NCBI GenBank assembly: GCA_029194675.1
Contig: JARFXP010000001.1
Span: forward strand, 620,001-684,000
Direction of reading: 5' to 3'
Length of the DNA: 64,000 bases
Origin: Nitrospira sp.
Lineage (GTDB): Bacteria; Nitrospirota; Nitrospiria; Nitrospirales; Nitrospiraceae
The notes under the pieces were generated by a model. That model was not told the origin of the DNA and ran no database searches. It saw only the letters and a program-made list of their open reading frames with translations. Shown here one piece after another: positions 10,793-64,000 of the stretch. The position numbers and the translations under genes were made by a program. Numbering within the stretch: the first letter of the stretch is position 1; each line of letters starts with the position of its first letter.

Positions 10793-10817
10793 ATGTTTTC
10801 TCTCAGATTCGCACTCA

Positions 10818-11476: not shown

Positions 11477-11930
11477 TCAACGGTCGCGAAGCCTGAAGTG
11501 CAACGGCTTTGACAGTGTCGTGCGAACAGGACAATTCTCCAAGGCCGAGAGGAGTTGGCCCTTTTCAGTTTCTGATAGCGCGCCATGAAACTCTACGCGG
11601 TACTCGAACAACGGCCCATCTGGGTTGTTTCGATTGAGGGAAACAGCGACGGATACACCCGAAAGCGGAATGCTCTGTTTCTCGGCGTACATGCGTAAGC
11701 TCATGTTCATGCAACTGGCCAGGGCGGCCTCAAGAAGCTCATGAGGCCGAAACCCAAGATTGCCGCCACCTTTGCCAGGTGTAGTGTCGGAGATCGAGAC
11801 AGCCTTTTTCGACCATCCTTTTGGCTTGATTGCAGGATCGCGCTCAGACCGACTACTGCTTGTAGAAACTGCTACTACGACCTTGCAACTGTCTCGAGGT
11901 CCATCGCGGCGGGATTGACGAAGTCGCCTT
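11477..11930 (-). pseudogene. OsmC-family protein lacking a recognisable start
   Basis: The reverse frame encodes an OsmC/YhfA-type peroxiredoxin-like domain: LGFRPHELLEAALASCMNMSLRMYAE contains the N-terminal catalytic Cys, and ALENCPVRTTLSKPLHF the second Cys. The 5' end is the problem: the frame runs back into a fragment of rlmI (11932-12152) and has no in-frame ATG or GTG at the expected place. An ATG 35 nt after the rlmI fragment starts another frame that stops after nine codons. I infer that the first codons were lost or frameshifted at the rlmI junction. A second, shorter osmC fragment is at 32895-33060. Confidence 0.65.
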
Positions 11931-11931
11931 C

Positions 11932-12152
11932 CGCTACAACACCTGCACAATATAACACTTAAGATACCGCCTCTCGGGCATGCTGGCGAGGATCGGATGG
12001 TCGGCGCTTTGACCAAAGTCTTTCAATTAGCCGGATGTCTCGCCTAGCGTCGCGGGCGGCGAGGCGAATGCTATTTTAGAGATCTGTCTCTGAGACGGGA
12101 TGGGAACAGGTCACGAGAAACCCACCCGGCTTGAGCAGCTTCAAACCCAGCC
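11932..12152 (-). pseudogene. partial copy of the rlmI 3' end
   Basis: Matches 14873-15090, the last ~70 codons of rlmI including the terminal YLKC(F/Y)IVQV and stop, with many substitutions and a small deletion near 12105. Homology ends abruptly at 12152, 16 nt after the cyanase stop, so only the C-terminal part exists. The divergence suggests it came from a related genome rather than from recent duplication here. Confidence 0.8.
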
Positions 12153-12168
12153 GCGGACGCACTTCTCG

Positions 12169-12609
12169 TCAGAATGACTTATACTCGAGCCATTTGCCGT
12201 TCAGCGTGATTTTGCAGCGGGTTTCACCCTGGCTGCCGGTGACCTTCTCCATGTCCACCGTGAAATCGATCGCGCTCATGATGCCGTCGCCGAACATCTC
12301 GTTCGCCATCTCACGCAAGGAATCGCCGTACAGGCCGACAATTTCGAGCAACCGGTACTTGAACGGGTCCGTCATGTTCGGTAGATCCGTGCGTACCGGA
12401 AAGCGGCTCAAGGATTGGACAATCTCGTTGTCCAAATCCAAAAGCTTGCCGACCTTCACCGCTTCGTCCGGGGTAAATCGGTGATTACCATTCAACGCCG
12501 CCGCCACGAACGTGGGGTTCTTGCCGACTGCCCTCGCAACGTCGGCGATCATGAGTTTCTTCTCGAGTCGAGCGGCCTTGACCTTACTGCGTATCGCTTC
12601 TTTCTCCAT
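12169..12609 (-). CDS. cynS: cyanate hydratase (cyanase)
   Basis: Converts cyanate plus bicarbonate to ammonium and CO2, useful for nitrogen supply or detoxification. The 146-aa protein has the N-terminal helix-turn-helix-like domain (ADVARAVGKNPTFVAAALNG) and the catalytic C-terminal domain. Arg86, Glu89 (YRLLE) and Ser112 (DGIMSAIDF) align with E. coli Arg96, Glu99 and Ser122. It ends KWLEYKSF like other cyanases. The ATG at 12609 follows GGGAGGCCAGC. It lies alone between an rlmI fragment and a 35-bp direct repeat; no cyanate transporter genes are adjacent, pointing to separate acquisition. Confidence 0.95.
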   Translation of the reverse strand: MEKEAIRSKVKAARLEKKLMIADVARAVGKNPTFVAAALNGNHRFTPDEAVKVGKLLDLDNEIVQSLSRFPVRTDLPNMTDPFKYRLLEIVGLYGDSLREMANEMFGDGIMSAIDFTVDMEKVTGSQGETRCKITLNGKWLEYKSF

Positions 12610-12679
12610 GCTGGCCTCCCATGAATAGGGGTCTCTGTCACCAATCAACAGGAGACCCTGTGGAAAAGAGATGGGCGCG

Positions 12680-12714
12680 AACCTCTCATGCGGCCTCGGA
12701 CGTAACTGGAAGGA
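12680..12714 (+). repeat. 35-bp direct repeat, copy 1
   Basis: AACCTCTCATGCGGCC...GGAAGGA matches 14817-14851 with one mismatch. The two copies bracket a 2.1-kb segment carrying two lipoprotein genes, and the second copy is 22 bp from the rlmI stop. This suggests a duplication or insertion boundary. Confidence 0.7.
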
Positions 12715-12899
12715 AATGCGTTTGTGGCACAGAGAGTCCCAGTACCTCTTCTATTCCACTTTCCTCCAGAGGAACCGTTCAGATGACGCCGCCTGGGGTA
12801 CTCGGGACGGAATTTCTCCGGGCGGCGCGACCGGACGGGCACCTGACGCATGAGAAACGCTGATGCACAGGTCCCAGAACCCATAACAGGTTGGTGGAC

Positions 12900-13235
12900 C
12901 TAACGATTCGAGGGTCGTCTGCCGGCCAGTTCCAGATGCAGGCTAGCCTGCCGGTCCTGTTCACGCGCCGCGTCTTCGTAAAACTGCGTGAGCATTTGCG
13001 CACCGGCCACCCAGTCCGAATCACGTCCGAAGATCTGTTCGTAGATCAAGGCGCGATTGGCTTGTTCCGCCCCCTTTTGGCGGGAAAGCACGGCCTGTCG
13101 GGAGTAATAGGAAGCGATTTTCAAATGGTCCTGATTTGAGTTGGGAAAATCGGCATCAAGCTGCGCCGACAGGCCCCGGTTGCATCCGGTTGCGAACAGG
13201 AGGCTTGCTAATAACAGGAACGTTGCGATCTTCAT
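12900..13235 (-). CDS. small lipoprotein of unknown function (111 aa)
   Basis: Starts MKIATFLLLASLLFATGC: a signal peptide ending in a clear lipobox (FATGC), so it is probably lipidated and membrane-anchored. The rest is helical with YYSRQAVLSRQKGAEQANRALIYEQIFG and may form a helical hairpin. Not recognised. The ATG at 13235 was chosen because the signal peptide begins there. It lies inside the segment bounded by 35-bp direct repeats. Confidence 0.75.
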   Translation of the reverse strand: MKIATFLLLASLLFATGCNRGLSAQLDADFPNSNQDHLKIASYYSRQAVLSRQKGAEQANRALIYEQIFGRDSDWVAGAQMLTQFYEDAAREQDRQASLHLELAGRRPSNR

Positions 13236-13320
13236 GCGACGGAGGCCTTCTTTTACTGATATTATGCTACCGCGCGGCGGCTCTATCAACAGGGGTGCCG
13301 TTCATCTAATCCAGGGGGAG

Positions 13321-13416
13321 TTCCCCGTCTGGGGAAACGGGGGTGAGAGCAAGGTCCTGCGAAGCAGGACGAGTCCCGCTCGTAATCAATTGAGGACCGC
13401 ACCTATAAAGGCGGGA
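13321..13416 (+). ncRNA. candidate structured RNA or leader
   Basis: Three consecutive stems can form: CCCCGT/ACGGGG (13323-13328 with 13337-13342), GTCCTGC/GCAGGAC around a GAA loop (13354-13360 with 13364-13370), and CCCGC/GCGGG (13375-13379 with 13411-13415). It lies 130 nt before the start of the downstream lipoprotein gene, so it could be a leader element. It matches no riboswitch class I know. Confidence 0.3.
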
Positions 13417-13545
13417 GAATCTATTCACGCCATCCCTCCCGCATGTATTCCAAGGTTCCATAGGCCCTCTAGCTCAGACGCCACAGTCCAGCGTACAATA
13501 ATTTTCAGGCGAGTGGGAGGACCGTGCTGGACCTGAGAAACCACC

Positions 13546-14697
13546 ATGAAACGGACTGTGACCGCTCTGCTGTCGGTTCTGTTGGTGGGAGGGTGCGGCG
13601 TCCTCGTTCCTTATATCTACGATGCCCAAACACTCCGAGATCGGTTGGTCGTGTCGATGCCGAAGGAACAAGTCCTGAAGCAGTTGGGCAAACCGAATCG
13701 TGTCGTTCAGGACGAGGGGCGGCAGACCATTTGGGAGTATCGGTTCTATCCAGAGGGCGATTGGACTGCCTATGTGATCCATTGTCCGTTTTTCCCAAAC
13801 TGCTACTTTCCGGGCGAAGCGGGGCACCCGTATTATGTCGTGCTGCAAGACAATCAATTGTGCCTCTGGGGAACGCCTGAGGTCGTCCGGCCCCTGCTGG
13901 GGCTCGTCTGTGGGCCTGCTGTTCCGCTCGATCGAAAAGCGCATGTCCGTGGAGGCCTTCGCATTTCGGTGATTCCGGTATTCATGCCTCCTCCCATCCT
14001 GCCCCTGCCGCAGCGTTTGGCTATCATGCCTATCGACGGGTCGTCTGATGTCGAAATCAGTTCATGGCTCGATCTGACCTTGAATTTCCTGCGCACACGC
14101 CATCGAGACTTGGTGCTGGTGGAACGAGAGGATCTGAAGGCGGTGCTGAAGGAGATGGGCATTCAATACGGCGGCCATGTCGATGACGAGACGTCGATCC
14201 ATATCGGGAGACTTGTCGGCGCGGACAGTTTGCTGATCTATCGGATGATCCTACCGGAGCGCATACCATTGTCGGCGGCGTTCGAACTCCGCCTCTTCAA
14301 GGTTGAAAGCGGCACCACCCTGTTCCGCCAAATGGTTTCGGGAAGCCAAATGTCGCCGGTACCGGTCGCAGCCAGGACCCAGCGTTCCGCCAAGCCTGAC
14401 TCTCTTGCCAGTCGTCTCTTGCTCCAAGAAGCCGCCGCCTATGGATTGGCCGCGCTCACGGCTGCCTTCGGCGATAATCCATTAGGACTGGTGCCGGACT
14501 ACACTTGGTCGGGGGAAGGCATACAAGTACTGGACGTCCTTCAAGGGGGACCGGGCTTCCGTGCCGGAATCAAGTCGGGTGATCAAATCGTGGAGTCCGA
14601 TGATCGACCGGTCGGAAGCTGGTCGGATCCGGTCACACTCCCGGCGCAGTTGACCGTCAGGCATAACGGGGTCCCCCTCGAGATGTCCGTCAGATGA
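13546..14697 (+). CDS. lipoprotein with BamE/SmpA-like, CsgG-like and PDZ regions
   Basis: 383 aa. The signal peptide ends in the lipobox VGGC at Cys17. Residues ~30-75 (LRDRLVVSMPKEQVLKQLGKPNRV) resemble the SmpA/BamE fold. Residues ~155-290 (LAIMPIDGSS ... LVLVEREDLKAVLKEMG ... IHIGRLVGADSLLIYR) look like the CsgG/FlgO-type fold found in periplasmic assembly lipoproteins. Residues ~320-383 (GIQVLDVLQGGPGFRAGIKSGDQIV) form a PDZ-like domain. The combination suggests an outer-membrane-associated scaffold; its exact role is unknown. The gene lies in a segment bordered by direct repeats. Confidence 0.85.
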   Translation: MKRTVTALLSVLLVGGCGVLVPYIYDAQTLRDRLVVSMPKEQVLKQLGKPNRVVQDEGRQTIWEYRFYPEGDWTAYVIHCPFFPNCYFPGEAGHPYYVVLQDNQLCLWGTPEVVRPLLGLVCGPAVPLDRKAHVRGGLRISVIPVFMPPPILPLPQRLAIMPIDGSSDVEISSWLDLTLNFLRTRHRDLVLVEREDLKAVLKEMGIQYGGHVDDETSIHIGRLVGADSLLIYRMILPERIPLSAAFELRLFKVESGTTLFRQMVSGSQMSPVPVAARTQRSAKPDSLASRLLLQEAAAYGLAALTAAFGDNPLGLVPDYTWSGEGIQVLDVLQGGPGFRAGIKSGDQIVESDDRPVGSWSDPVTLPAQLTVRHNGVPLEMSVR

Positions 14698-50503: not shown

Positions 50504-52936
50504 ATGCGACGGATACAAACCGTACTCACACTCATTCTCGGTTTGGCCTTACTTACAGGGTATGCGATCCTGGCGGAAGGACCAGCTGTCGCGGCAAGCG
50601 GCAAGCCCGCCCCTTCACCATTTCACTACGGCAAACATCTGACGGATGCCGAACTGGTTGGAGCGGAGATTTGGTTCAACGCCACAGCCGGCAACGCTCG
50701 CTTCTTCACCTACGTCTATCAGCAGCGACTCGGTGTCATGATCGATTGGTATCGAGTCTTGCGAAGCGACGCACGCGACGCGCGTTTCCATCGGTGGGGC
50801 CTGATCAACGATCCGGATTGCTGTAAGCCGGGCGATGCTCACTGTCCGGCCAAGAGCTATGACGAGACCTATGGTTTCGACTACTGTCCAGGCGACGACG
50901 AACTGCTCAAGTATGTCGGGAAGAGCGGGTATCGAGATCCTGCCTGCGATCTGCAGGACGTGCCCCTTGTGCAGGGCGATCCCCATGATCAAAGAGATTT
51001 GCGCCAGTCGGCCTGTGACCTTGAATTCGGAACATCCACCGGTGCACTGGGCCTCCGGAAGTTCCCCAATCCCAAGTTCGACAAGGTGAAATGGCTCAAA
51101 ATTAACGGCGGACACCTGGACTCGTGGGACGGCTATACAGCCAAAGTGGTGCCGCGCAAGGACCGTGAAGCGCCAGCCAAGAGTCATCTGGTCGACGGCT
51201 CGATCGAGCCGCCCTATCGTATCGGCATGTCCTGCGGTGCCTGTCATATTGCCTTCGATCCGATCCGCCCTCCCAAAGATCCGGTCCATCCGAAATGGGA
51301 GAACCTCTCCGGCACAGTCGGCAATCAGTATGGCCGATTCGCGCAGATCTTGGGATCGGGAATGGCGCCGAACACCATTGAGTACCAAATCTACGGGCAT
51401 TCGCGTCCTGGTGCCGTCGACACCTCCGCGATTCCGAATGATCAGGTCAACAACGCCGGCACGATGAACGCCATCATCAATCTGGCCAAGCGACCGAGTT
51501 TCGAGGAAGACATCATCAAATGGCGCAAGACGAACCAATGTCCAGCTGGAGGAAACGAGCGGACCTGTTGGTGCGAACCGGGCAAGGACGGCAAGTGTTG
51601 GGAGCGGGGCCGAAAGAAAGAGTTCGTCCACCACATCTTGAAAGGTGGAGAGGACAGCATCGGCACCCTCGAAGCCATTCAGCGCGTCTACTTCAACATC
51701 GGCAGTTGCTCCGAGGAAGGGTGGGGCAACCATCTCACCGACATGCGGCAGCTCGATCCCACGATGCGTGGGTTCGGGCAGACGCCGTTCGACATCGGAC
51801 AGGTTCGCCGGGACTGTCCACAATTCCGCGCGATTGAGGATCGCTTGGGCGAAATCGCTCAGTTCTTGTCTACCGGAGCCCCGGCCGACCTGTACCAAGC
51901 CCGTGGGTTGAAGAACAACGCCGCGCTCGTCGAACAGCTCAATAAGGAATTCGGGAAAGGCGCAGTTGAGCAGGGTCGCGTGATTTTCGCGAGCAAATGC
52001 GCCTCGTGCCATTCCAGCCAGAGCCCACCGTTCGAGAATCGAGATTTTCGAACGGTCTCCACAGATCCTAAGGACAAAGGCATCCGCATCGATTGGCTCG
52101 GGAACGACAAGGTCATTCCCGTGAGCGAGGTCGGGACAAACCGCTCGCGATCCCTCCATTCCAATCACATGCAGGGCCGCGTCTGGGAAGAGTACGGCTC
52201 TGAAACCTTGCGGGCGAAGCCCGGCGATCCACAACTCAAGGAACCCTCAGACGGCGGACGGGGTTACTACCGAAATATCTCACTACTCAGCCTCTGGGCC
52301 TACGCTCCATTCATGCACAACAACGCCGTGGGCCCCGAAGTCTGCGGTGGTCCATTGGATGAGCACTACTACTCATCCTATGTCGATAAAGATGGGAAAC
52401 CGCTGGCCTCCCCTCCACCCTGTTGGGTATTCGATCCCAGCGTGGAGGGACGATTCAAGCTCTACAAAGCGTCGATGAAAGAGTTACTCAACCCTTCTCA
52501 ACGAATTCAAAAAGTGACCGGGTTCAATCACGAGGTGACCATTCGGCTGTTCCCGAAGCTGGGTGACGGCAAACTGGAGCGTTTTGTCGACACGGCCATT
52601 CGCTTCCCGGTCGGCACACCGGCCGCGCGGATCGGGAACTTCCGCCACAAGGAACTGGTGGGAGATCTCGTCATGGCGCGGGTGGACTTTGACAAGCTGA
52701 AGGCCAAGTACGCCGGCCGCTATGGAGCGGAAAAGGGCGAACAGATCGCCAAAACGATCCAAGAAAAGGGAAAGGAGCTGCTCGAGAAGCCGGGATCAGC
52801 CCTTGAGGCTGGAGCGGAATTGCGCGAGGTCTACAGCAACAGTCTCGCAGTCATCGAAAACGACGGGCACCGATTCGGCGAGGATCTCTCGGATAAAGAG
52901 AAGGATGCGCTGACAGCGTTCCTAGCGACACTCTGA
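50504..52936 (+). CDS. large diheme cytochrome c, RoxA-like
   Basis: 810 aa. The signal peptide (TLILGLALLTGYAILAEGPAVAA) is followed by a long Cys-containing N-terminal region. Haem motifs are CGACH near residue 243 and CASCH near 499. The C-terminal part has NISLLSLWAYAPFMHNNAVG, like the LWATAPxLHN motif of RoxA-type cytochromes in the diheme peroxidase superfamily. RoxA proteins are periplasmic oxygenases; here the substrate is unknown. ATG 50504 lies 8 nt after GGAGG. It is the first gene of a six-gene unit with peroxidases. Confidence 0.85.
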   Translation: MRRIQTVLTLILGLALLTGYAILAEGPAVAASGKPAPSPFHYGKHLTDAELVGAEIWFNATAGNARFFTYVYQQRLGVMIDWYRVLRSDARDARFHRWGLINDPDCCKPGDAHCPAKSYDETYGFDYCPGDDELLKYVGKSGYRDPACDLQDVPLVQGDPHDQRDLRQSACDLEFGTSTGALGLRKFPNPKFDKVKWLKINGGHLDSWDGYTAKVVPRKDREAPAKSHLVDGSIEPPYRIGMSCGACHIAFDPIRPPKDPVHPKWENLSGTVGNQYGRFAQILGSGMAPNTIEYQIYGHSRPGAVDTSAIPNDQVNNAGTMNAIINLAKRPSFEEDIIKWRKTNQCPAGGNERTCWCEPGKDGKCWERGRKKEFVHHILKGGEDSIGTLEAIQRVYFNIGSCSEEGWGNHLTDMRQLDPTMRGFGQTPFDIGQVRRDCPQFRAIEDRLGEIAQFLSTGAPADLYQARGLKNNAALVEQLNKEFGKGAVEQGRVIFASKCASCHSSQSPPFENRDFRTVSTDPKDKGIRIDWLGNDKVIPVSEVGTNRSRSLHSNHMQGRVWEEYGSETLRAKPGDPQLKEPSDGGRGYYRNISLLSLWAYAPFMHNNAVGPEVCGGPLDEHYYSSYVDKDGKPLASPPPCWVFDPSVEGRFKLYKASMKELLNPSQRIQKVTGFNHEVTIRLFPKLGDGKLERFVDTAIRFPVGTPAARIGNFRHKELVGDLVMARVDFDKLKAKYAGRYGAEKGEQIAKTIQEKGKELLEKPGSALEAGAELREVYSNSLAVIENDGHRFGEDLSDKEKDALTAFLATL

Positions 52937-52965
52937 TGCATGAACCCTGGGAAGAGGTGATCACG

Positions 52966-53865
52966 ATGAAACGCGCACGATGGTTGATGTCGGTCGGTTT
53001 GGTAGTGAGCCAAACTGTGCTCCTCGGCTGTAACCCAGATCCGCCGCCGATTCCATTTGCCCAGAGCGGGGAAGGATATTCCGACAAGGTCGATTTTGCC
53101 CGGCTGGAGCACGAGTCACCCCTCAGACCAGCCGATCTCATGAAGATCACGCCGGATAATCTCAAGGGCGCCACGCAGGAACAGGTCGATCAGATCTATG
53201 CCCGCTTGACAGCCGGGCCGATTCCGGACGGGGTGTACGATGGGCAAATGTTTTTTCCGAAGGGATCGAGCGAACGGGCCCGCCTGGCCGAGATCGTCGG
53301 AGGAGGCATCAAGGGTTTCCTCGTCGATCTCAAAGCGGCCAAGCTCGAGCACATCGGTGAATTCATCTGGAAAGGGAAAGTGTTCTATCGTCAGGACGGC
53401 GTCCTTCGGAATCGCATCCAGGATTTGGCCGTACTCAAGCCGATCGTCGGTCCACACACCGACAAGATTCAAAAGATCGACGTAGACGGCAAAGACGCCT
53501 GGTTGCTGTTCCCCGCAAAGCTCTATTGTGGGCAGAGTCTGCTGGATGGGCGCCGTGAATCGGTCATTATCGACTACGCGTTTACCGATGACCTGCTGGG
53601 CTACCGCGAGATGCCCGATGTGTTGGCCGGACGGGAAGGCTTGGAGATACGCGACGAAATTCGGATGGTTCGTCCAGGATTTTACCTGGGACGAGCCTAC
53701 ATGAAGAAGGTCTTCGCCTTGAACTTCACGCTGTACAACAAGACCGTGGCGGAGAAGGAATCTCCGGCATTTGCCAGTTCCGGCTCGGTGGCAGAGGACT
53801 GCTGGGTCGGCAATCAGCGTCTGACAGCCATGGCCAACAAACCGGGCACCCAACAAGCCCGGTGA
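52966..53865 (+). CDS. lipoprotein of unknown function (299 aa)
   Basis: The signal peptide with lipobox VLLGC places it in the membrane facing the periplasm. The mature part has VDFARLEHESPLRPADLMKI, GKVFYRQDGVLRNRI and MVRPGFYLGRAYMKKVFALNFTLY, a pattern resembling proteins that flank RoxA-like cytochromes. No haem motif. The first ATG of this frame overlaps the cytochrome stop, but the signal peptide starts at 52966. Confidence 0.8.
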   Translation: MKRARWLMSVGLVVSQTVLLGCNPDPPPIPFAQSGEGYSDKVDFARLEHESPLRPADLMKITPDNLKGATQEQVDQIYARLTAGPIPDGVYDGQMFFPKGSSERARLAEIVGGGIKGFLVDLKAAKLEHIGEFIWKGKVFYRQDGVLRNRIQDLAVLKPIVGPHTDKIQKIDVDGKDAWLLFPAKLYCGQSLLDGRRESVIIDYAFTDDLLGYREMPDVLAGREGLEIRDEIRMVRPGFYLGRAYMKKVFALNFTLYNKTVAEKESPAFASSGSVAEDCWVGNQRLTAMANKPGTQQAR

Positions 53866-53884
53866 AGTAAACGCCTAGCAACTC

Positions 53885-55828
53885 ATGCAAGAAATACTAA
53901 GACGGTGGGCAACTGCCATGGGATGCCTGCTTATGACGACTGTATTTGTTTCTGGATGTGGCCGCCAGGATGCGGAAAGGTCCAACAGCGGTGCGGGTAC
54001 TCCCTCTGCGCAACCCACTACCCCGGTATCTAGTGATTCGGCAGTACCTCCATGGGCTGTTGATCCGACTGAATCCGGGACGAACCTCCCGCCGATCGGG
54101 CGATCGTTGTTTGATTTCCTTATTACAAAGAACGTGAGCGGGGAAAAGGTCTACGACATCCCGTTTCCGTTCCCGGCTCTGACAGCTCGAATCGAATCGC
54201 ACCTCCACTCCGAACGTACACCGGCGACTCTTAAACGATTGCTGATTCCGGTCAATCGCTCGCTGCAGCGGCGTGCCGGCGACGGCGAGTTCTTTACCTA
54301 TCCGCGAGCTGTGCTCGCCGTCGATACAGAAGCGGATTCGTCCTTAGGTCTATCAGCCATGCATCTCAAAGACCGGCTCTTCATCGGCTACCACGAAAAG
54401 ACGGCAGTATTGGAGATCATCAGCTATAACGAGGCGGCGGGCCGGTTCGAGTTCCAGATTGTCGATGACTACCGTGCCGGTGGAACGCCGGCGGTTCGGT
54501 ACGCCAATCGTGCGCTCTGCACCGCATGTCATCAGAATCAGAGTCCCATCTTTTCCCGCCCCATGTGGGACGAAACCAACGTGAACCCCAAGATCGCCGC
54601 CCTGCTTGTCCATCAACGTCGCCAGTATCACGGCTTTCCCATTAGACAAGGAGTGGGAGTGCTTCAGGCCTTCGATGATGCCACCGATCGAGCCAATGAG
54701 ATTTCGCTGGCCCAGCTGCTCTGGCGCGAGGGATGTGAACAGGCCGGTCGACCGGAGCAGTCGATCAGGTGTCGAGCCGAACTGATCGAGTGGGTGCTTC
54801 GATATGCGCTGTCTAAAAGATTGGTCCAGGATTGGCACACCGGCGAGGACCCTGTCGAGCCACCCTCCTTTCTTGCCGCATGGCATGTGCGCTGGCCGCA
54901 TGGATTGGCCATTCCCAATCCTGATATTCCTAATCGCAATCCCTTTCGGTATGTCGCGGTGAGCGAGTTCCCCGGTCTCAGTGAGGTAGAAGCTACAGCT
55001 CTTGAGGGAAGAGAACCACGATCCCTGTTTCGCGGACCACACGAACCGACCCTGCCTCGCGAACCGCTCGAGGTATGGACCGTCCCCGATACTCCACAGA
55101 CACTCGAGCGAGTACTGGTTTCGTTTGCGCAGTTTTTCATCAAGGCGGACCTCAATCGACTGAAACGCGTGATGCATCGGCAGCCTGAGCGACTCAAGCA
55201 GACAGTACGCGCCGTGGCGCAAAGCACCTTGATGGGCCGAACCGATGCTTTCACCAACCAGGCGTTCCGTCGGGCGACAATCTTGGCTGCGTTTGATCAG
55301 CAATTAGGGGTCCCGGTGACCCATCGTTGCTGTCTGAATGATCACGGCATGCCGCCGCCGCTGGACGACGAGGTTGCCTCCCATCACTCAACAGGTGCAG
55401 CGCACGAGACTTCGCTGATCGGCGAACACAACCTGTTAGATCGGTATTGCGGTGCTTGTCATCATGGAGAGGATAGCTTTCCACCGAACTTTCTCCATGG
55501 GTCTCCTGCCGAGGTCGAGGCCAATTTAACGCAATGTGCCGATCGGATCTTCGTGCGGTTAAGCATGTGGGACATTGCCGGCCCCGAACAGCTGGAAGCT
55601 CCGATGCCGCCGGCCATGCATCTCTTACATTACCGGATCGGTCTGGACGAATGGAAACGTCACTCCGATTTGCAGGTGCTTCGCAAGGAGGCAGTGGCTG
55701 CCATTCAGCGAAAGCGAGGCGCGACATTTAGCCCTGAAGATTTGCTGCAACAGGACTATGACACCTTACCGGCTTGCCTCGCTCCTCGTCGTGAGATGAC
55801 CGAAGCAGTAGGAGCGCATCATGGATAG
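53885..55828 (+). CDS. lipoprotein with two haem c motifs (647 aa)
   Basis: Lipobox VSGCG near residue 25, then a Ser/Thr/Pro linker. The first haem site is ALCTACHQNQSPIF near 212. The second is RYCGACHHGEDSFPP near 522, followed by a MPPAMHLL region that could supply a Met ligand. The regions between are novel to me. It probably passes electrons at the outer or inner membrane for the other enzymes of this unit. The start could also be the ATG at 53918. Confidence 0.8.
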   Translation: MQEILRRWATAMGCLLMTTVFVSGCGRQDAERSNSGAGTPSAQPTTPVSSDSAVPPWAVDPTESGTNLPPIGRSLFDFLITKNVSGEKVYDIPFPFPALTARIESHLHSERTPATLKRLLIPVNRSLQRRAGDGEFFTYPRAVLAVDTEADSSLGLSAMHLKDRLFIGYHEKTAVLEIISYNEAAGRFEFQIVDDYRAGGTPAVRYANRALCTACHQNQSPIFSRPMWDETNVNPKIAALLVHQRRQYHGFPIRQGVGVLQAFDDATDRANEISLAQLLWREGCEQAGRPEQSIRCRAELIEWVLRYALSKRLVQDWHTGEDPVEPPSFLAAWHVRWPHGLAIPNPDIPNRNPFRYVAVSEFPGLSEVEATALEGREPRSLFRGPHEPTLPREPLEVWTVPDTPQTLERVLVSFAQFFIKADLNRLKRVMHRQPERLKQTVRAVAQSTLMGRTDAFTNQAFRRATILAAFDQQLGVPVTHRCCLNDHGMPPPLDDEVASHHSTGAAHETSLIGEHNLLDRYCGACHHGEDSFPPNFLHGSPAEVEANLTQCADRIFVRLSMWDIAGPEQLEAPMPPAMHLLHYRIGLDEWKRHSDLQVLRKEAVAAIQRKRGATFSPEDLLQQDYDTLPACLAPRREMTEAVGAHHG

Positions 55829-55867
55829 ATTGAAGGCCAACGGTTGCCATGCAAAGGGTCTGATGCC

Positions 55868-57166
55868 GTGACCCCGCAGTCCCAATTCATGCTGGTGGCA
55901 CAGGTCGCGCCGGGCCGCGAGCGCGGCCTGCGGGACCTGCTGGAGACGATGAACTCGGATCCGGGTATGGCCGACTCGGCGAACGCAGTTTTACCGTTCG
56001 GACAATTTGAACGCCTGCATTTTGCGCGGCTGGTGGTGCTGGACGATCCCACACTCGGCGACATTGAAGCGCACGCGGTCCCGCGCCCGAACCTGCCCGT
56101 CTACCTTGCGTTTATCGGCAGCTGTGACGGATCCGCAGGCGAGTGCATCGCGGATCTGGCACAGCGCGCGGATACGGGGTTGCGCCGAATCTTCATGCAT
56201 TGCGACGACTTCAACGCGGATGATGATCTACTACCCTGGATGCAAGCGCATCAACATCGACTCGCTGCCAACTACATCAACTGGGTCGGTCGTACGGTAC
56301 GGCAAGTCAAGGAGGAAAGCGCACTGCAACGTGCTCTCGCCGCGAAAGTGCCGCGCGCGTCGCTCGCATCGGCCGCGCAAGCTCAGCAACTCCGGCGCGA
56401 GCTGATCGACTTCGTCGATGCTGAAGTCAGCGCCGGGAGGCTTGGCCTGACGCCACCGGACCCGACACCGCTGCGCTGGAAGATCGCGAAGCTCCTCCAT
56501 CTCGTTGCGATTCCCCTGGCGGGCCTGATCCTGCTGCCGTTTCTGATTGTCCTGTCGCCGCTCTTGATCTTCATCTTGCGCACGAAAGAGAACAGCGACG
56601 CCGAAATCTGCCCGCCCCCTGATCGCGCGGCGCTGCTGGAATTGCAGCGTCTGGAAGACTACGACGTGACCAACCAGTACACGGCGTTCGGCTCGGTCAA
56701 GCCGGGGCTATTTCGCCGCTGGCTCGTGACCATGGTGCTGACGCTGATCGACTATACCTGTCGCCATGTCTTCACACGCGGTTTTCTCGCACGCGTGCAG
56801 ACGATTCACTTTGCGTTCTGGGCCTTTCTCGATGACAAACGCCGGCTCGTCTTCACCAGCAACTATGACGGCGGTCACGAGGCCTACATGGACGACTTCA
56901 TCAACAAGGTGGCGTGGGGTCTGAATCTGGCCTTCAGTCACGGCGTGGGCTGGCCGCGCACTCGTTGGCTGGTCGCGCGCGGCGCACGCATTGAAAACAA
57001 GTTCAAGCACTACCAGAGGCGGCATCAGTTGCCGACAGAGGTCTGGTACAGGGCCTACCCGGGCCTGGCCCTGGTCGACCTCAAACGGAACCAGCGCATC
57101 AGGGAAGGGCTGGAGCTTGCGCACGTGACTGATACGCAGGCTCAAGCCTGGTTACAGCTGCTATGA
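55868..57166 (+). CDS. unknown protein with membrane hairpin, DyP-linked (432 aa)
   Basis: The N-terminal domain FMLVAQVAPGRERGLRDLLETM resembles a ferredoxin-like or dimeric alpha-beta barrel. Residues ~215-245 are strongly hydrophobic (LVAIPLAGLILLPFLIVLSPLLIFIL), and the C-terminal half contains YDGGHEAYMDDFINKV. No family recognised. The GTG at 55868 follows AAAGGG; an ATG at 55844 is the alternative. The stop overlaps the DyP gene (ATGA), so the products are likely partners. Confidence 0.75.
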   Translation: MTPQSQFMLVAQVAPGRERGLRDLLETMNSDPGMADSANAVLPFGQFERLHFARLVVLDDPTLGDIEAHAVPRPNLPVYLAFIGSCDGSAGECIADLAQRADTGLRRIFMHCDDFNADDDLLPWMQAHQHRLAANYINWVGRTVRQVKEESALQRALAAKVPRASLASAAQAQQLRRELIDFVDAEVSAGRLGLTPPDPTPLRWKIAKLLHLVAIPLAGLILLPFLIVLSPLLIFILRTKENSDAEICPPPDRAALLELQRLEDYDVTNQYTAFGSVKPGLFRRWLVTMVLTLIDYTCRHVFTRGFLARVQTIHFAFWAFLDDKRRLVFTSNYDGGHEAYMDDFINKVAWGLNLAFSHGVGWPRTRWLVARGARIENKFKHYQRRHQLPTEVWYRAYPGLALVDLKRNQRIREGLELAHVTDTQAQAWLQLL

Positions 57167-58686
57167 GCACAAACCTGAGTCAGGACAGGTCCGTGGAACT
57201 GAACGACGTTCAGGGCTTGGTGCGGTTCGGGCACAAGCACCTGACGGAAGCTTGTTTTCTCCTACTGTGCGTCAAGGATCCAGCCGCGGCACGTGCCTGG
57301 TTGGCGCAGGCTCCCATCACAACCGCTGTCAAGGTCGATCCACTGCCCGAGACTGCGCTCCATGTCGCATTCACGAGCGAGGGACTGCGTGCATTGGAGA
57401 TCGCCCCCGACCTGCTCGCGGAGTTTTCAGCCGAATTTGTCGCCGGCATGACAAGTGACGCCGCACGCGCGCGCCGTTTAGGAGATATCGGCGCCAATGA
57501 TCCGAGCGGTTGGCAATGGGGCACCGGTGAGCGGGTGCCGCACGTCGCCGTGCTTCTGTATGCCCGGTCCGGGCGACTGGCGGCATGGGAACAGGAGATC
57601 GAAGCGCAGTGCGCGGCCGGCTTCGTGCGCATCGAACGCCTGTCGACATCCGATAGGCAGGACGTGGAGCCGTTTGGATTTGCCGACGGCATTTCGCAAC
57701 CGCAAATCGATTGGGAGCGCAAGCGGCCGGTGCGCGACCAGGACCAGCTCGAGTACAGCAACGTGAGTTGCCTCGGCGAGTTCCTGCTCGGTTATCCCAA
57801 CGAATACGGGCTCTACACAGCGCGTCCGCTGCTGACTCCACGGCGTGATTCCGATGCTCTGCTGCCGAGGGCCGAAGACGCACCGGACCAAGCCGACCTC
57901 GGACGCAACGGCTGCTATCTCGTGTTGCGTCAACTTCAGCAGGACGTGCAAGGTTTCTGGCGCGAACTGAATCGGCAAGCGGGCGGTGATGTGGACCTGC
58001 GCGAGCGGTTGGCCGAGGCGATGGTGGGTCGAAAGAAAAACGGCGAACCTCTGGTCGCGCCAAGCGAGGGCTCAGTCGCCGACGACGCTCCCGGGCAGCG
58101 ATCAAACCTGAACGACTTCACGTACGAAGCCGATCCGCGAGGGCTGCGCTGCCCGTTGGGCGCGCACATCCGACGTATGAATCCGCGCAATGCGGATTTG
58201 CCGCCCGGTCCTCCGGGAATCCTCTCGCGTCTGTGGCGTATGTTGGGCTTCAACGCGGCGGCGCGGCATCAAGATTTGGTCGCATCGACACGCTTTCATC
58301 GCCTGCTTCGCCGCGGACGAACATTCGGTGCAGGCGTGGCGCCTGCATTGTCTACAGTGGAACCTTCGTCCGGGGCCGATACCGGGATCTATTTCATCTG
58401 CCTGGTGGCCAATATCAAACGGCAGTTCGAGTTCGTGCAAAGCGCGTGGGTGATCGGAAGCAAATTTGCCGGGCTCACCGGCGAAAGCGATCCGTTGCTC
58501 GGCCACCGATTGCCGGAGCCGGGAGATTCGTCCACCGACGGCTTCTCGATTCCGCAAGCCGATGGTCCGGATCGACGCTTGAACAGCTTGCCGCAGTTTG
58601 TCACCGTGCAAGGCGGCGCCTACTTTTTCCTGCCCGGGATTCGCGCCTTGCGGTACCTCGCGACGACACACTCAAAGGAGTCGTGA
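57163..58686 (+). CDS. DyP-type haem peroxidase
   Basis: 507 aa. The hallmark GFADGISQP contains the catalytic Asp of the GxxDG motif, CPLGAHIRRMNPR the proximal haem His, and FHRLLRRGRTFG the distal Arg region. The N-terminal NDVQGLVRFGHKHL is typical of the family. No signal peptide is visible, as in many DyPs. The enzyme oxidises substrates with peroxide. It sits between the membrane-hairpin protein and the catalase-like gene with overlaps on both sides. Confidence 0.93.
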   Translation: MSTNLSQDRSVELNDVQGLVRFGHKHLTEACFLLLCVKDPAAARAWLAQAPITTAVKVDPLPETALHVAFTSEGLRALEIAPDLLAEFSAEFVAGMTSDAARARRLGDIGANDPSGWQWGTGERVPHVAVLLYARSGRLAAWEQEIEAQCAAGFVRIERLSTSDRQDVEPFGFADGISQPQIDWERKRPVRDQDQLEYSNVSCLGEFLLGYPNEYGLYTARPLLTPRRDSDALLPRAEDAPDQADLGRNGCYLVLRQLQQDVQGFWRELNRQAGGDVDLRERLAEAMVGRKKNGEPLVAPSEGSVADDAPGQRSNLNDFTYEADPRGLRCPLGAHIRRMNPRNADLPPGPPGILSRLWRMLGFNAAARHQDLVASTRFHRLLRRGRTFGAGVAPALSTVEPSSGADTGIYFICLVANIKRQFEFVQSAWVIGSKFAGLTGESDPLLGHRLPEPGDSSTDGFSIPQADGPDRRLNSLPQFVTVQGGAYFFLPGIRALRYLATTHSKES

Positions 58687-59927
58687 TGCAACGGAACGTA
58701 ATTGGCTCAATGACGAGCCGCCCGGTGCCGCCTGCCAATACAGGCTCGGCAGTCCTGAATTGGATCAGCGATACGTCACTGCGACTGGTGCAACTGCAGC
58801 GGCGCATCGATCCCTGGATGCGTCCGCCCTTCGACGCGGTGCTGCGCGACCCGGTCGCGCGCCTGACCACCGCGTTGATCAACTTGCTCCGCCCGAACGA
58901 AAGACTGAAGATCGCCGAGGAACGGCTGCAACCGGACGAGGAGGCCTCGCTCCAATCGATCATCGATTCGTTCCAGAAGCAGATGCGCGGGCTGTGGAAG
59001 CCGGGTGGATTCGAACGAGGCGGAAACACCAAGACCCACGGCATCGTGCGTGCCGAGTTCATCGTCCACGACGGCCTGCCGCCGCGGTTCCGGCACGGCA
59101 TCTACGCGCAACCCAAAACCTATCGCGCATGGGTACGTTTTTCAGGCCCCGGGCCCTACGTGACGCCGGACATCGACGATGTGGGGTTCATGAGCATCAG
59201 CATCAAGCTGATGGGGGTTCCCGGCCCCAAATTGATGGACGAAGAGAAATTCACGCAGGACATGTTCGGTGTATCCACGCCGACCTTCGTCACACCGGAC
59301 ACGCGCGCGAACGCTCAGTTGCAGCTTGAGAGCCTGAAGAATGCGCAGATGTACTACTTTTTCAATCTTCGCCGCCCCCACCTGTTGGACTTCATCATGC
59401 AGGGACTATGGATCAAGACGCAGAGCAGTCCGTTCGAAGCGCCGTACTTCAGTTGTGTGCCCTATCTGTTGGGAGAAGGGCAGGCGATGCAATATTCGGT
59501 GTGGCCTAAATCAAACACAAAAACCCCGATCCCACGCCTTCCGCTGCGGCCGCCGGATGACTACCTGCGTCAGGCCATGGTCGCCGCGCTCAATCAACGT
59601 GATGTCGAGCTGGACATTCGCCTGCAGTTGCAGACCGATCCTCACCTGATGCCGCTCGAAAACAATGCGGTGCTGTGGCCGGAGCGGCTGTCGCCCCGCG
59701 TCTCGGTGGCCACCTTGCGCATCCCAAAGCAGAAGTTCGACTCACCGGCGCAGATCGCGTTCGCGCGACGCCTATCCTACAATCCATGGCACTGCATCGC
59801 CGAGCACCGCCCGCTCGGCAATCAAAGCCGCGCCCGGCGCCGCATGTATTTCGAGTTATCGAAGTTTCGACACGACATGAACGCTGAGCCGCACTATGAG
59901 CCGACCGGGGATGAAACGTTTCAATAA
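58686..59927 (+). CDS. catalase-like haem protein (413 aa)
   Basis: A compact catalase-fold protein. THGIVRAEFIVHDGL provides the distal His, YRAWVRFSGPGPYV the substrate-channel region, and FARRLSYNPWHCIAEHRPLG the RxxSY with the likely proximal Tyr ligand. Then RARRRMYFELSKFR. It is shorter than true catalases and resembles catalase-related peroxidases or allene-oxide-synthase-like members. Possible substrates are H2O2 or organic hydroperoxides made by the upstream enzymes. Its start overlaps the DyP stop (TGATG). Confidence 0.87.
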   Translation: MQRNVIGSMTSRPVPPANTGSAVLNWISDTSLRLVQLQRRIDPWMRPPFDAVLRDPVARLTTALINLLRPNERLKIAEERLQPDEEASLQSIIDSFQKQMRGLWKPGGFERGGNTKTHGIVRAEFIVHDGLPPRFRHGIYAQPKTYRAWVRFSGPGPYVTPDIDDVGFMSISIKLMGVPGPKLMDEEKFTQDMFGVSTPTFVTPDTRANAQLQLESLKNAQMYYFFNLRRPHLLDFIMQGLWIKTQSSPFEAPYFSCVPYLLGEGQAMQYSVWPKSNTKTPIPRLPLRPPDDYLRQAMVAALNQRDVELDIRLQLQTDPHLMPLENNAVLWPERLSPRVSVATLRIPKQKFDSPAQIAFARRLSYNPWHCIAEHRPLGNQSRARRRMYFELSKFRHDMNAEPHYEPTGDETFQ

Positions 59928-60357
59928 GCCCACATTGTTCATGACGGTTCGGGACGAAACCGCCTGTCTGCGTGTCCGCACAGGCAGGCCAAGACGCCAA
60001 GCGAGACACCGCGATTGTCCCGGCGGTTCATCGTTACGGGTACAGCCAGAGAGGGGTTGCAGATCGCACTACGCGACAGTGAGCCGAATAGCAAATAGGC
60101 CTTGATGCAAGAGGCAAGGTCTGACGCTATCTAGTTATCCTCGGAATTGACGATGATGACGACAAAGGTATCCGACCCCTTAACACGACCCGACCCCTTA
60201 ACACGACCCCTTAACACTGTGCATTACAAACATGTGTCATGAAGTAGGCTGGTTCTTGTTAATTGCTTGCTTGTGGTTTAACACCAGATGTTGTACCTTC
60301 CGCGCTGGTCATAGGGAAGGCACGTCATGAGATGCTTCATTTGGAAGAGGTGGAGAA
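59928..60357. other. gap with degenerate MITE end and short tandem repeats
   Basis: 59925-60010 resembles the left part of the element at 63253 (TAAGCCCACATTGTTCATGA vs TAGCCCGCATTATTCGTGA; then GACGAAACCG). 60174-60221 carries three copies of a GACCCCTTAACAC word. No gene seen. Confidence 0.55.
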
Positions 60358-61344
60358 ATGCAGGTCGCGATGAGAGTAATTTGCCTCCTGATTGCGATTA
60401 GCTTATTACCAGGTTGCACGTTGTGGGACGTGATGACTTTCTCTTCCGACGCCAATAGTTACGCGATACACAATTCACAAGCTCAATTGGTTGTATTTGA
60501 AGGTTCAGACATGACTAAGTGCGATGACCTAGACAAACAGGAAGGCGCTGGGTTCGCCGCTGCCGCACCAATGATAGCTGCAGGAGCTGTAGCTGTCTTT
60601 AACTACGCCGCAAGCGAATTATCAAGTTATCTCAGTAAGAAGAAAAAGGAGTTCAGCTTTCAATACAACACAAAGGTTAACTTGCCGGAATTTTACCTCA
60701 AAGACCGTGGAAGCAAGCAATACACTAAACCCGCGTATAACTGCCTGCGACTGATACGCATCATCGATGACAAAACAACAGACAGTTCTTCGGCAAACAA
60801 GAAAACGAAGCGTGCATTCGTATGGCGGGCAGCCCTTATTCCTAATGAATCAGGAACTGCTCTAAAAATAGATACGATCGACACCAAGCTCAGTCTAGCT
60901 GGTGCAAGAACGGACAGCGCAAGCAGAAAAATTGATGTCAGCGTTGAGATAAAGATCGATGCCACGACCTATAACAAGCAAGGAGACATTGTAACGACCA
61001 CTATCGCCGACAAGACGCTGAGCTATCCAGGAATGACCACTCCTGAACTTAATAAGGAAGCAACCTTTGTTGCGTCCACAGTAGAATCCAGTTGGTTTCC
61101 TCCTATACCTCGCAGCGATGCCGAAATACAGAAATGTGAAGCAATCCATTCTAGTGGAGGTGAATGCCGGGGTGTCTCGGCAATTACAATCTCTGCTTTG
61201 GTGACTGAGACAGGCTCTGGAGGAGATGATTTTGGCACCCTAGGAAAACAAATCGACGACAACAAGAAAACCTTAGCAGACGCACTGAGTACAACGATTA
61301 CAAATGCATTAAAGCCACCTGCTAGCAGTGGTAGTTCCAAATGA
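60358..61344 (+). CDS. lipoprotein of unknown function (328 aa), AT-richer
   Basis: The signal peptide with lipobox ISLLPGC gives a probable lipoprotein. A Gly/Ala hydrophobic stretch (GAGFAAAAPMIAAGAVAVFNY) near 65-85 is followed by a Lys-rich segment and a Thr/Asp-rich beta region ending with a Ser tail. Family unknown. Base composition is visibly lower in GC than the neighbours, as is the next gene, suggesting joint acquisition. GTGGAGAA precedes the ATG; ATG 60370 is possible. Confidence 0.75.
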   Translation: MQVAMRVICLLIAISLLPGCTLWDVMTFSSDANSYAIHNSQAQLVVFEGSDMTKCDDLDKQEGAGFAAAAPMIAAGAVAVFNYAASELSSYLSKKKKEFSFQYNTKVNLPEFYLKDRGSKQYTKPAYNCLRLIRIIDDKTTDSSSANKKTKRAFVWRAALIPNESGTALKIDTIDTKLSLAGARTDSASRKIDVSVEIKIDATTYNKQGDIVTTTIADKTLSYPGMTTPELNKEATFVASTVESSWFPPIPRSDAEIQKCEAIHSSGGECRGVSAITISALVTETGSGGDDFGTLGKQIDDNKKTLADALSTTITNALKPPASSGSSK

Positions 61345-61414
61345 AATAGGGGGTACAGCGACAATGGAACTTTAATCTTCATACCATAACTCCATTATCA
61401 CGTGAGGTGGTAGT

Positions 61415-62356
61415 ATGTGCAGAATATTTACCCCTTTGATTGTCGTTTGGGTGATTTTCTCCCCACTCCCCACACGGGCCGATGAGACGATTGACGTAAT
61501 GGCTTATTGCCAATATGTAGCAGAGACTGTCAAATCAGGGCCAAGAACAATCCGTGTTACAGACCCAGAGCCAAGCATAAAAGAGATACTCGGCATTCTC
61601 GAAGACACTACAGCTACAGGTGGTTATGAACTCAAATCCTCGTCCGACGTTAGCAGCGCGGAGGCCATTGTACTCAAGGTAGCAGGCTCGAATGTGCCGA
61701 GAAGATTAATTGTATATAACCCTGGTTGGCTTCAATCTGATACCGTGCCTGAGGAGGGGCGATGGACGGTAAAAGGGGTTTTAGCTCACGAAATAGGACA
61801 TCACGTGCACTCGCACTTATTGTCCTGGGAGCAATCTCAAAGTGTCGACAGACCCGATTTCGAACTAAAAGCAGATTATTATACAGGCTGGATTCTGTCT
61901 CAAATGGGCGCAAATCTTGAGCAAGCTAAGCTGGCGGTCACAAAGTTTACAAATAATAAACCTCCTCCTTCGTACCCACCAAAGGACGCAAGAGCATTAA
62001 TGGTTGAGAGTGGCTGGACACATAGTGAAGCCTATAAAATTGCAAAGAATTATCGATCAACGACGAAGCTGATTCTATTTTCACCTCTTTCAGCTCATAC
62101 AGATGGCAGGCTATATATTCTCTTCGGTAATGATCTTATACATGAAAATGAACATGGCGTTGCGTATCTCATGGGAAACCGAGAGGAATCGGACAGGCCA
62201 CGGTATGTGTGGACGTATAAGATCCCCCCCCAAACTCAGAACGAGATGCCCACGCAGATTTGGGATGATACAAAAGGAAAAGTCTGGTCTGAGTATGGTG
62301 TAGTTGGAGATGTTATGATGCCCAGTGTTATGACACACACGGAGAGCCCAAAGTAA
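61415..62356 (+). CDS. exported zinc metallopeptidase-like protein (313 aa)
   Basis: The signal peptide (TPLIVVWVIFSPLPTRA) is followed by a gluzincin active site LAHEIGHHVHSH (HEXXH plus an extra His) and FELKADYYTGWIL with the third ligand Glu about 25 residues later, as in M48-type peptidases. It lies 70 nt after the AT-rich lipoprotein gene. The C-terminal part (IPPQTQNEMPTQIWDD) is not recognised. Probably periplasmic. Confidence 0.83.
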   Translation: MCRIFTPLIVVWVIFSPLPTRADETIDVMAYCQYVAETVKSGPRTIRVTDPEPSIKEILGILEDTTATGGYELKSSSDVSSAEAIVLKVAGSNVPRRLIVYNPGWLQSDTVPEEGRWTVKGVLAHEIGHHVHSHLLSWEQSQSVDRPDFELKADYYTGWILSQMGANLEQAKLAVTKFTNNKPPPSYPPKDARALMVESGWTHSEAYKIAKNYRSTTKLILFSPLSAHTDGRLYILFGNDLIHENEHGVAYLMGNREESDRPRYVWTYKIPPQTQNEMPTQIWDDTKGKVWSEYGVVGDVMMPSVMTHTESPK

Positions 62357-62448
62357 GTACCAAGACTTTGGCGACCGTATCTGTACCAATCACAGGCGGC
62401 AAAAGGGCAAACTCCTTGTCCGCAGTTTCGTGAGAAGTCAAACTTGTT

Positions 62449-62619
62449 TCGTGCATCTCTGTGAGCTACACCACACGCCATGGCACGCCCAATTCCCGTT
62501 CCTTTCTGCTGTTCCTGCCGGCATCCCATATTTGCATCGTCTGGCGAGGCGGTGACACAATGGTGATGGAACTCCCGCGATGGCCGATCTGAAAATATAC
62601 GCCGGGTCGTCCACTCCCA
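62449..62619 (+). repeat. duplicated 5' end of the DUF1284 gene, copy A
   Basis: 171 bp nearly identical to 62647-62817. It contains the leader and first ~14 codons (ADLKIYAG...) of the DUF1284 gene, then stops at a GGGGTCAGATCTTG repeat. Not functional as a gene. Confidence 0.85.
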
Positions 62620-62630
62620 CAAAGCCCAAT

Positions 62631-62654
62631 GGGGTCAGATCTTGGATCGTGCAT
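62631..62654 (+). repeat. GGGGTCAGATCTTG(G)ATCGTGCAT repeat
   Basis: 24-bp word at the junction between the two DUF1284 5' copies; it also occurs at 37612-37635 beside the ribE fragment and, on the other strand, at 34190-34213. Confidence 0.65.
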
Positions 62655-62777
62655 CTCTGTGAGCTACACCACACGCCATGGCACGCCCAATTCCCGTTCC
62701 TTTCTGTTGTTCCTGCCGGCATCCCATATTTGCATCGTCTGGCTAGGCGGTGACACAATGGTGGTGGAACTTCCGCG

Positions 62778-63254
62778 ATGGCCGAGCTGAAAATATACGC
62801 CGGGTTCTCCACTCCAATCCGTCTCCGGGGCCATACCCTCCTCTGTCTGCAAGGGTTTCGTGGGGAAGGCTACAGCCCGGGTTTTGTTGCCAATATGGCG
62901 GCGATTCATCAGACTCTGTGTCATCAGCCCGAAACCACTGTCCAGGTCGTGGCATCTCCAGATGCAGTGTGTGCCGCCTGCCTCCATCAACAAGGGTCGT
63001 CCGGTTGTACACTCAACGGAGAGCCGTCGGAAGCGGACATGATTGACCAGGATCGGGTCGTCCTTGGGAGGCTTGGTCTGAAAGCGGGGGATCATCTTTC
63101 TTGGCAAGAGGTTCTCGCGCGGATCAGCAGGTCGATGAGCGGCGGCGACCTGCCTTCCATCTGCGGCAGTTGCCGATGGTTGCCGCTCGGCTATTGCCGT
63201 GAGGGGATCGATCGGCTGCGCAGTTCCATCCGAAGACGAAAAACCAACCCATAG
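62778..63254 (+). CDS. DUF1284 protein (158 aa)
   Basis: IRLRGHTLLCLQGFRGEGYSP then GFVANMAAIHQTL is the DUF1284 signature. Cys pairs (VCAACL, GSCRWLP, YC) suggest metal or cluster binding. Members are small cytoplasmic proteins of unknown role. The leader and start region (62647-62817) are a duplicate of 62449-62619. The ATG at 62778 begins the conserved domain. Confidence 0.85.
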   Translation: MAELKIYAGFSTPIRLRGHTLLCLQGFRGEGYSPGFVANMAAIHQTLCHQPETTVQVVASPDAVCAACLHQQGSSGCTLNGEPSEADMIDQDRVVLGRLGLKAGDHLSWQEVLARISRSMSGGDLPSICGSCRWLPLGYCREGIDRLRSSIRRRKTNP

Positions 63255-63663: not shown

Positions 63664-63750
63664 AGGAACGGAGGGGTTTCCCGCAGCCTGATAGATCTTC
63701 GTTTCACCGAGAGCGGCGAGAGATGACGCGTTCATTCCGACGTTGTCGCC

Positions 63751-64000
63751 GTGCCGACCCTGCGCGATCTTTTGGAGCCGGTCGATAAACGACCCAAGAT
63801 CTTTTTTCGCGGCTACGACGTCTATAATCCGGTGAAAGTGGGCGTCGTCGCGACCAAGTAGGAGGCTGACATGAACGGGCTCACGGATGAGCGAGAGCGG
63901 GAGAAATTGTGCGAGGACGTTGAGCGGATGGAAACCAGGTTCGACGTGAGCCAACGTGCCGGCAGCAATCAGGGTCACACATTTGGAACCAACCTGCCGG
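63751..64000 (+). pseudogene. decayed C-terminus of a RoxA-like cytochrome, runs off right edge
   Basis: The frame reads VPTLRDLLEPVDKRPKIFFR, then GYDVYNPVKVGVVATK, a TAG at 63859, and in the same frame METRFDVSQRAGSNQGHTFG. This order matches the end of RoxA-type diheme cytochromes. The part before VPTL is replaced by unrelated repeat-rich DNA. An ATG at 63871 with AGGAGG upstream could open only the last part. Confidence 0.65.

Follow-up and report, generated by a model that had tools for sequence, protein, structure and literature searches.

The 64,000-nucleotide stretch of Nitrospira sp. analysed here (the window; GCA_029194675.1, contig JARFXP010000001.1) carries at 50504–59927 of its plus strand six closely packed genes, ROX, LIP, CYT, MEM, DYP and CAT, that make up a unit of two evolutionary modules, A (ROX-LIP-CYT) and B (MEM-DYP-CAT). 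Judging from sequence comparison, we consider it moderately probable that the unit is an oxylipin-type cassette, in which a lipid dioxygenase is combined with haem enzymes that convert hydroperoxides. Gene content, synteny, module replacement, residue changes and predicted folds are direct results of the comparison and are described first.

Gene layout

The overlaps and short gaps that an earlier note on this DNA had described for six same-strand genes were confirmed, and all of the open reading frames (ORFs) are present:

50504..52936, plus strand: ROX, RoxA-like dihaem c-type protein of 810 residues, module A; two CxxCH motifs, signal-like N-terminus, MauG-like motif PFMHNNAVG
52966..53865, plus strand: LIP, lipoprotein with a predicted calycin-like barrel domain, module A; lipobox LLGC
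53885..55828, plus strand: CYT, dihaem lipoprotein of 647 residues, module A; lipobox VSGC, two CxxCH motifs
55868..57166, plus strand: MEM, tandem ABM-fold protein of 432 residues with a hydrophobic helix, module B; GTG start
57163..58686, plus strand: DYP, DyP-type peroxidase, module B; overlaps MEM by ATGA, no signal peptide
58686..59927, plus strand: CAT, catalase-fold protein, module B; ATG within a TGATG overlap, distal His replaced by Asn114, proximal Arg-xxx-Tyr present

Gaps of 29, 19 and 39 nucleotides separate ROX from LIP, LIP from CYT and CYT from MEM, respectively, and MEM/DYP and DYP/CAT overlap. The start of MEM was set at the GTG at 55868 because its relatives begin at the same MTPQ or VTPQ, and translation of LIP could also begin at 52936, where an ATG overlaps the stop codon of ROX. 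ROX, LIP and CYT each carry a hydrophobic signal or a lipobox, and no N-terminal signal is seen on MEM, DYP or CAT. Since the same genes stand in the same order in the Nitrospira MEM loci that were read and in a gammaproteobacterial metagenome-assembled genome (MAG; L081), the arrangement is not a product of chance. The earlier note had taken the six genes as a single unit, but they fall into two modules and six Nitrospira genomes hold module A without module B.

Neighbourhood of MEM across phyla

A scan for MEM gave 172 relatives, of which the best 80 loci were kept; gene content was read by tblastn and counted on the 56 loci of at least 19 kb. These loci come from seven phyla, including that of Nitrospira, and cannot be counted as independent cases, as Variovorax and Nitrosomonadaceae are over-represented. 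DyP is present in all 56, CAT and a LIP-domain protein in 55 each, a Rox-type dihaem protein in 50 and a GMC oxidoreductase in 43, so that the synteny of MEM with DyP and catalase-like genes, which the earlier note had proposed as a check, is borne out. It had also named independent occurrence of the cytochrome and DyP parts in all relatives as grounds for rejection; Rox-type genes were instead found near MEM-DyP in those 50 loci, although the particular cytochrome trio and DyP trio of this unit are separable.

A gene of a lipid-dioxygenase type lies within about 10 kb of MEM in every one of the 56 loci, as a RoxA-like protein (50 loci), an animal haem peroxidase (16) or a lipoxygenase (7). 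The six loci that lack a Rox-type gene contain an animal haem peroxidase (L060, L091, L094 and L096) or both a lipoxygenase and an animal haem peroxidase (L072 and L080), and an animal haem peroxidase is also found in a shorter locus, L093; lipoxygenase (PF00305) is part of the MEM neighbourhood in Nitrosomonadaceae. Oxygenase families were assigned by Pfam in L061, L072, L078 and L094 and by similarity in the remaining loci. As gene order and strand vary, the link to oxygenases does not reflect one inherited operon. Many of the carriers are nitrifiers, including Nitrospira and Nitrosomonas. Among the recurrent families around MEM, neither a polyketide synthase nor any other gene for making a scaffold was seen.

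CAT has a catalase fold without the distal histidine

None of the 37 members of the CAT cluster reaches the Pfam gathering score for catalase (PF00199), and for LIP, MEM and CAT alike no Pfam or NCBIfam model was matched. More distant CAT relatives from the same order (G045 and G046), at the same positions, score above the Pfam cut-off for catalase, which links CAT to the catalase superfamily. These bridging relatives, which retain the histidine, set the register of the distal site: in an alignment with them and with true catalases, the counterpart of the catalase RxxH motif is RDxH or RNVH in these relatives, whereas CAT has RGGN. The distal histidine is thus replaced by asparagine in all 37 cluster members (Asn114 in CAT), and at or near the site of the catalase distal asparagine the representatives shown have valine or serine. 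The proximal pair R384-xxx-Y388 is invariant in all 37. The earlier note had called the protein catalase-like, which is right for the fold, but the distal catalase residues are lost, and CAT is probably not a true catalase.

The only matches of the CAT profile among all PDB sequences were weak ones to coral allene oxide synthase (AOS; 1u5u, E 0.0019; 3dy5, E 0.014), whose distal Thr66-His67 corresponds to Gly113-Asn114 of CAT. A phmmer search of the PDB with CAT alone gave no match, and hhalign against six catalases gave a weak alignment (probability 5%, E 0.0074) in a plausible register. Coral AOS has a catalase-like fold and acts on a fatty-acid hydroperoxide; the Plexaura enzyme is described as unable to scavenge H2O2, and the Capnella form has some catalase activity (PMC5617202). 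CAT shares the catalase superfamily and the proximal Arg-xxx-Tyr with the coral catalase-related AOS and hydroperoxide lyase (cAOS and cHPL; PMC5617202), but cAOS has the distal His67 and is fused to a lipoxygenase, whereas CAT has asparagine at that position and is encoded by a separate gene beside DyP. Five other clusters encode an exported catalase-like protein with glutamine at the distal position, as read from the motif R-F-N-Q, and an ordinary catalase is encoded elsewhere in the same Nitrospira genome. In another genus of the same order, a ROX2-GMC-CAT trio occurs without MEM or DyP (L133, 7847–13440), and its CAT relative retains the distal histidine, an intermediate state between catalase and CAT.

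MEM and DYP

The AF2 model of MEM (pLDDT 86.5, pTM 0.87) consists of two ferredoxin-like repeats with a hydrophobic helix (202–241) between them, and the two halves align with each other by hhalign at E 1.7e-7. Structurally it is closest to tandem ABM proteins that belong to polyketide pathways, WhiE-ORFI (9lmn_A; Z 13.5, root-mean-square deviation 4.2, 222 residues aligned) and Abx(+)O (9ltx; Z 11.1, 4.7, 196 residues), and the model thus predicts a tandem ferredoxin-like ABM fold. MEM has 8–12% identity to these proteins and differs from them in the inserted hydrophobic helix and in adjoining DyP instead of a polyketide synthase. Foldseek matches to M16 proteases were dismissed, as their TM-scores were 0.1–0.2.

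DYP is the sole member of the six with a confident family assignment (PF20628, 27.5 bits against a cut-off of 20) and lies below the NCBIfam superfamily cut-off (TIGR01413, 81 against 100.5 bits). All 78 homologues conserve Asp175 of the catalytic GxxDG motif, the proximal His335 and the distal-Arg motif. DYP shares these residues with DyP-type peroxidases, the closest solved relatives matching at E 4.7e-43, but it represents a divergent branch that is coupled to MEM in 79 of the 80 best loci.

Module A proteins

The haem motifs CGACH and CASCH of ROX and its C-terminal His789 are invariant across 26 aligned proteins, so that ROX shares with the rubber oxygenases RoxA, RoxB and RoxC two haem c sites and the equivalent of the C-terminal histidine ligand. 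Profile similarity to them is weak: against cut-offs of 900–1000, ROX scores 16–26 bits (RoxA, 24.9 against 1000; RoxB, 26.1 against 900); CytoC_perox also matched weakly, and NF040606, a dihaem cytochrome c peroxidase subfamily, was not reached (32.1 against 150 bits). When ROX and its homologues are combined in a profile, RoxA (4b2n) is matched at E 0.0075 together with many cytochromes c, and no PDB match was found by phmmer with ROX alone. At the MauG motif, PFMHNNAVG in ROX corresponds to PFLLNN[ST]VG in most of the Rox-type partners that we call ROX2. Most ROX2 appear to be lipoproteins, as are the RoxC proteins, whose role is not established (PMC10837239).

The LIP domain is common to a small signal-less protein that adjoins MEM in other phyla, with invariant W, K, F, N, DY and RDEIR. 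Its model (pLDDT 77.5) suggests a calycin-like barrel for which 4mve stands out at Z 9.7, followed by fatty-acid-binding proteins and lipocalins at Z of about 4–5; the predicted barrel may resemble lipid-binding ones. CYT follows ROX-LIP in all of the Nitrospira loci read.

Module B replaced two dihaem genes

Across 79 Nitrospira genomes, module A is present in 14 (an intact CYT in 14 and a fragment in one more) and module B, with MEM, in eight, MEM following CYT directly in all eight (in G091 as judged from coordinates alone). In the six genomes that have CYT and lack MEM (G010, G018, G023, G033, G064 and G066), the slot after CYT is taken by DOX1 and DOX2, two dihaem genes of the RoxA/10S-DOX type that score 171.5 and 151.9 bits, respectively, against the NF040606 cut-off of 150 in the one genome tested (L127). 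Scraps of DOX2 persist in genomes that carry module B: residues 298–348 lie right after CAT in L017, L018 and L193, another piece is found in G017, and residues 444–541 are encoded, with an in-frame stop, at 63749–64042 of the present genome, most of which lies in the window:

63749..64000, plus strand: DOX2 remnant, C-terminal 98 residues with one in-frame TAG; extends 42 bases past the window end

The slot content of the genomes without MEM, the DOX2 scraps and the glyQS flank common to genomes without MEM lead us to conclude that the operon already existed when module B took the place of two of its genes, both dihaem. Nitrospira is nested within Pseudomonadota in the MEM tree, with a myxococcal MAG as sister, and GC content is 0.60–0.63 in module B against 0.57 in module A, from which horizontal acquisition of module B follows. 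A single event may lie behind all eight Nitrospira cases.

In other Nitrospira, the intact CAT is followed downstream by loose copies of its final 50–60 codons (L134, 15678–15836; L192, 6061–6246; L052, 16577–16762), which are perhaps traces of the module B insertion. Between CAT and the DOX2 remnant, the window has a low-GC stretch (60000–62400, 0.47) that holds a lipoprotein-like ORF (60358–61344), and an ORF at 61415–62356 bears a HEIGHH zinc-protease-like motif. Within a minus-strand ORF at 62438–62812 the near-exact segment KYGMPAGT...RNGNWACHGVWCSSQRCT occurs twice, and the matches between nearby DNA and other Nitrospira loci are scattered in order; this region is repetitive or mobile DNA.

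A paralogous locus with a P450 at the place of CAT

The same genome has a second MEM-DyP locus (G000:C1:857000–867400; about 5293–14407 of L132), with MEM2-DyP2 at about 859–862 kb of C1. Its neighbours are a P450 (PF00067) at the place of CAT and an LCAT-like lipase (PF02450), and the opposite strand encodes a RoxA-like dihaem protein (PF21419; NF040606, 510 bits). Rearrangement of fatty-acid hydroperoxides is known from two classes of protein, P450s (CYP74) and catalase-fold proteins (cAOS; PMC5617202), and the exchange of P450 for CAT beside MEM-DyP is suggestive for this reason. MEM2-DyP2-P450 is also carried by G017, in which a 669-residue protein after DyP2 (L135, 4216–6225) appears tyrosinase-like by eye. 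Two ROX2-GMC pairs lie elsewhere in the genome (L130 and L131), the latter (6443–13852; G000:C4) without MEM and with a galactose/glyoxal-oxidase-like protein ahead of it.

Proposed function and alternatives

Textbooks treat fatty-acid dioxygenase pathways as a trait of eukaryotes, and few have been worked out in bacteria, the diol synthase of Pseudomonas aeruginosa being an example. In that organism, PA2077 dioxygenates oleate to a hydroperoxide and requires both haems for this (PMC4496055). The PA2077/PA2078 operon (10S-DOX and 7,10-DS; PMC4496055, PMC5155153) likewise encodes RoxA-like dihaem enzymes of the cell envelope, in which two CxxCH are accompanied by a MauG-type motif, and the hydroperoxide made by one enzyme is converted by its partner, as we propose here. 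It is a tandem dihaem pair like the one replaced by module B, DOX1 and DOX2 being likened to it by type; but it has two dihaem enzymes only, whereas the Nitrospira unit adds MEM-DyP-CAT, a lipoprotein and a further dihaem lipoprotein.

The kind of substrate, the order in which the steps occur, their location, the binding of haem by CAT and all of the activities are inferred as follows. ROX would act in the envelope as a c-type dihaem dioxygenase that introduces O2 into an unsaturated lipid or another hydrophobic chain, giving a hydroperoxide or a cleavage product, LIP, as a putative lipid-anchored calycin-like barrel, would carry or present the hydrophobic substrate or product, and CYT could supply electrons or carry out a second oxygenation. 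MEM, as a membrane-bound tandem ABM-fold protein, may anchor the soluble haem peroxidases DYP and CAT, of which DYP would reduce the hydroperoxide or take it as oxidant, whereas CAT would rearrange, dehydrate or cleave it, as an allene oxide synthase or hydroperoxide lyase does, and would not dismutate H2O2. This proposal is supported by the oxygenase link in 56 of 56 loci, the replacement of the DOX genes in their slot, the asparagine of CAT, the MEM2 locus, the predicted LIP barrel, the intact DyP residues and the precedent of PA2077. The earlier note had suggested that oxygenases and peroxidases form a pathway for an organic or lipid substrate in which hydroperoxides are dealt with as well; at the level of genome comparison this is largely supported, also by phospholipase or lipase genes beside some of the loci.

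Several observations weigh against an oxylipin-type cassette. The MauG histidine is replaced by leucine in most ROX2 partners, ROX itself is far from characterised oxygenases (24.9 bits to RoxA), and the match of CAT to AOS is weak (E 0.0019), the coral enzyme retaining the distal histidine that CAT lacks. Genes for patatin, Tle1-like or class-3 lipases are limited to 9 of the 56 loci, and the ABM fold of MEM resembles that of polyketide enzymes. Moreover, module A is seemingly exported and module B cytoplasmic, so that a shared intermediate would have to cross the membrane or MEM would have to sit elsewhere.

The intact catalytic residues of DyP, the membrane nature of MEM and the many nitrifiers under strong oxidant exposure among the carriers would also suit a protective role, in which module B renders hydroperoxides of lipids or other compounds harmless in the membranes of aerobic bacteria and the nearby oxygenases belong to the same stress regulon. 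We regard this as unlikely, since CAT lacks the distal histidine, an ordinary catalase is encoded elsewhere in the genome and every well-flanked locus has its own oxygenase-type gene, which a detoxification set would not need.

DyPs oxidise lignin-like compounds, ROX falls within the wider RoxA group and GMC oxidoreductases accompany MEM in 43 of 56 loci, so that breakdown of an external polymer, terpenoid or aromatic compound by RoxA-like cleavage and DyP oxidation, as in rubber or lignin degradation, was also considered. It is improbable: DYP, CAT and MEM have no signal peptide, ROX is far under the RoxA and RoxB cut-offs, the carriers include chemolithoautotrophic nitrifiers, and the RoxC-type proteins assayed to date do not cleave rubber (PMC10837239). 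Slightly less probable again is natural-product tailoring, in which MEM would serve as a cofactor-free enzyme of ABM type, an oxygenase or a decarboxylase, and a polyketide-like or quinone compound would be modified by the haem enzymes; the nearest structures, WhiE-ORFI and the decarboxylase Abx(+)O, speak for it, but scaffold genes are absent from the recurrent families around MEM, its partners are lipid oxygenase types and lipases, and likeness of fold proves no function. That two unrelated operons are merely adjacent, as the differing history and GC content of the modules and a possible single insertion in Nitrospira would allow, is very improbable, because the replaced genes were themselves of dihaem oxygenase type, module B accompanies Rox-type genes in 50 of 56 loci with order and strand shuffled, and, with four Rox-type places in a 5.2-Mb genome, one within 10 kb by chance would be roughly a 2% event.

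We therefore retain the oxylipin-type cassette and, more tentatively, put forward a wider proposal that seems to us plausible though short of probable: bacteria may possess a widespread, as yet undescribed oxylipin system with MEM-DyP-CAT at its core, in which hydroperoxides are processed at the membrane, three unrelated dioxygenase types are interchangeable and CAT, or a P450 in the paralogous locus, takes the role that CYP74 or cAOS has in eukaryotes. The parts are known families or folds; in the literature that could be searched, neither a system combining them with interchangeable oxygenases nor a description of the gene cluster was found, which is weak evidence of novelty as subscription journals lay outside the coverage. 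The exchange of asparagine for histidine in CAT makes for a sharp, testable prediction. If the proposal is true, three families without a name (MEM, the LIP domain and CAT) would be assigned a function, there may be a bearing on RoxC-like proteins, and bacteria of seven phyla, among them nitrifiers with no obvious use for rubber or lignin, would gain a general system of lipid oxidation.

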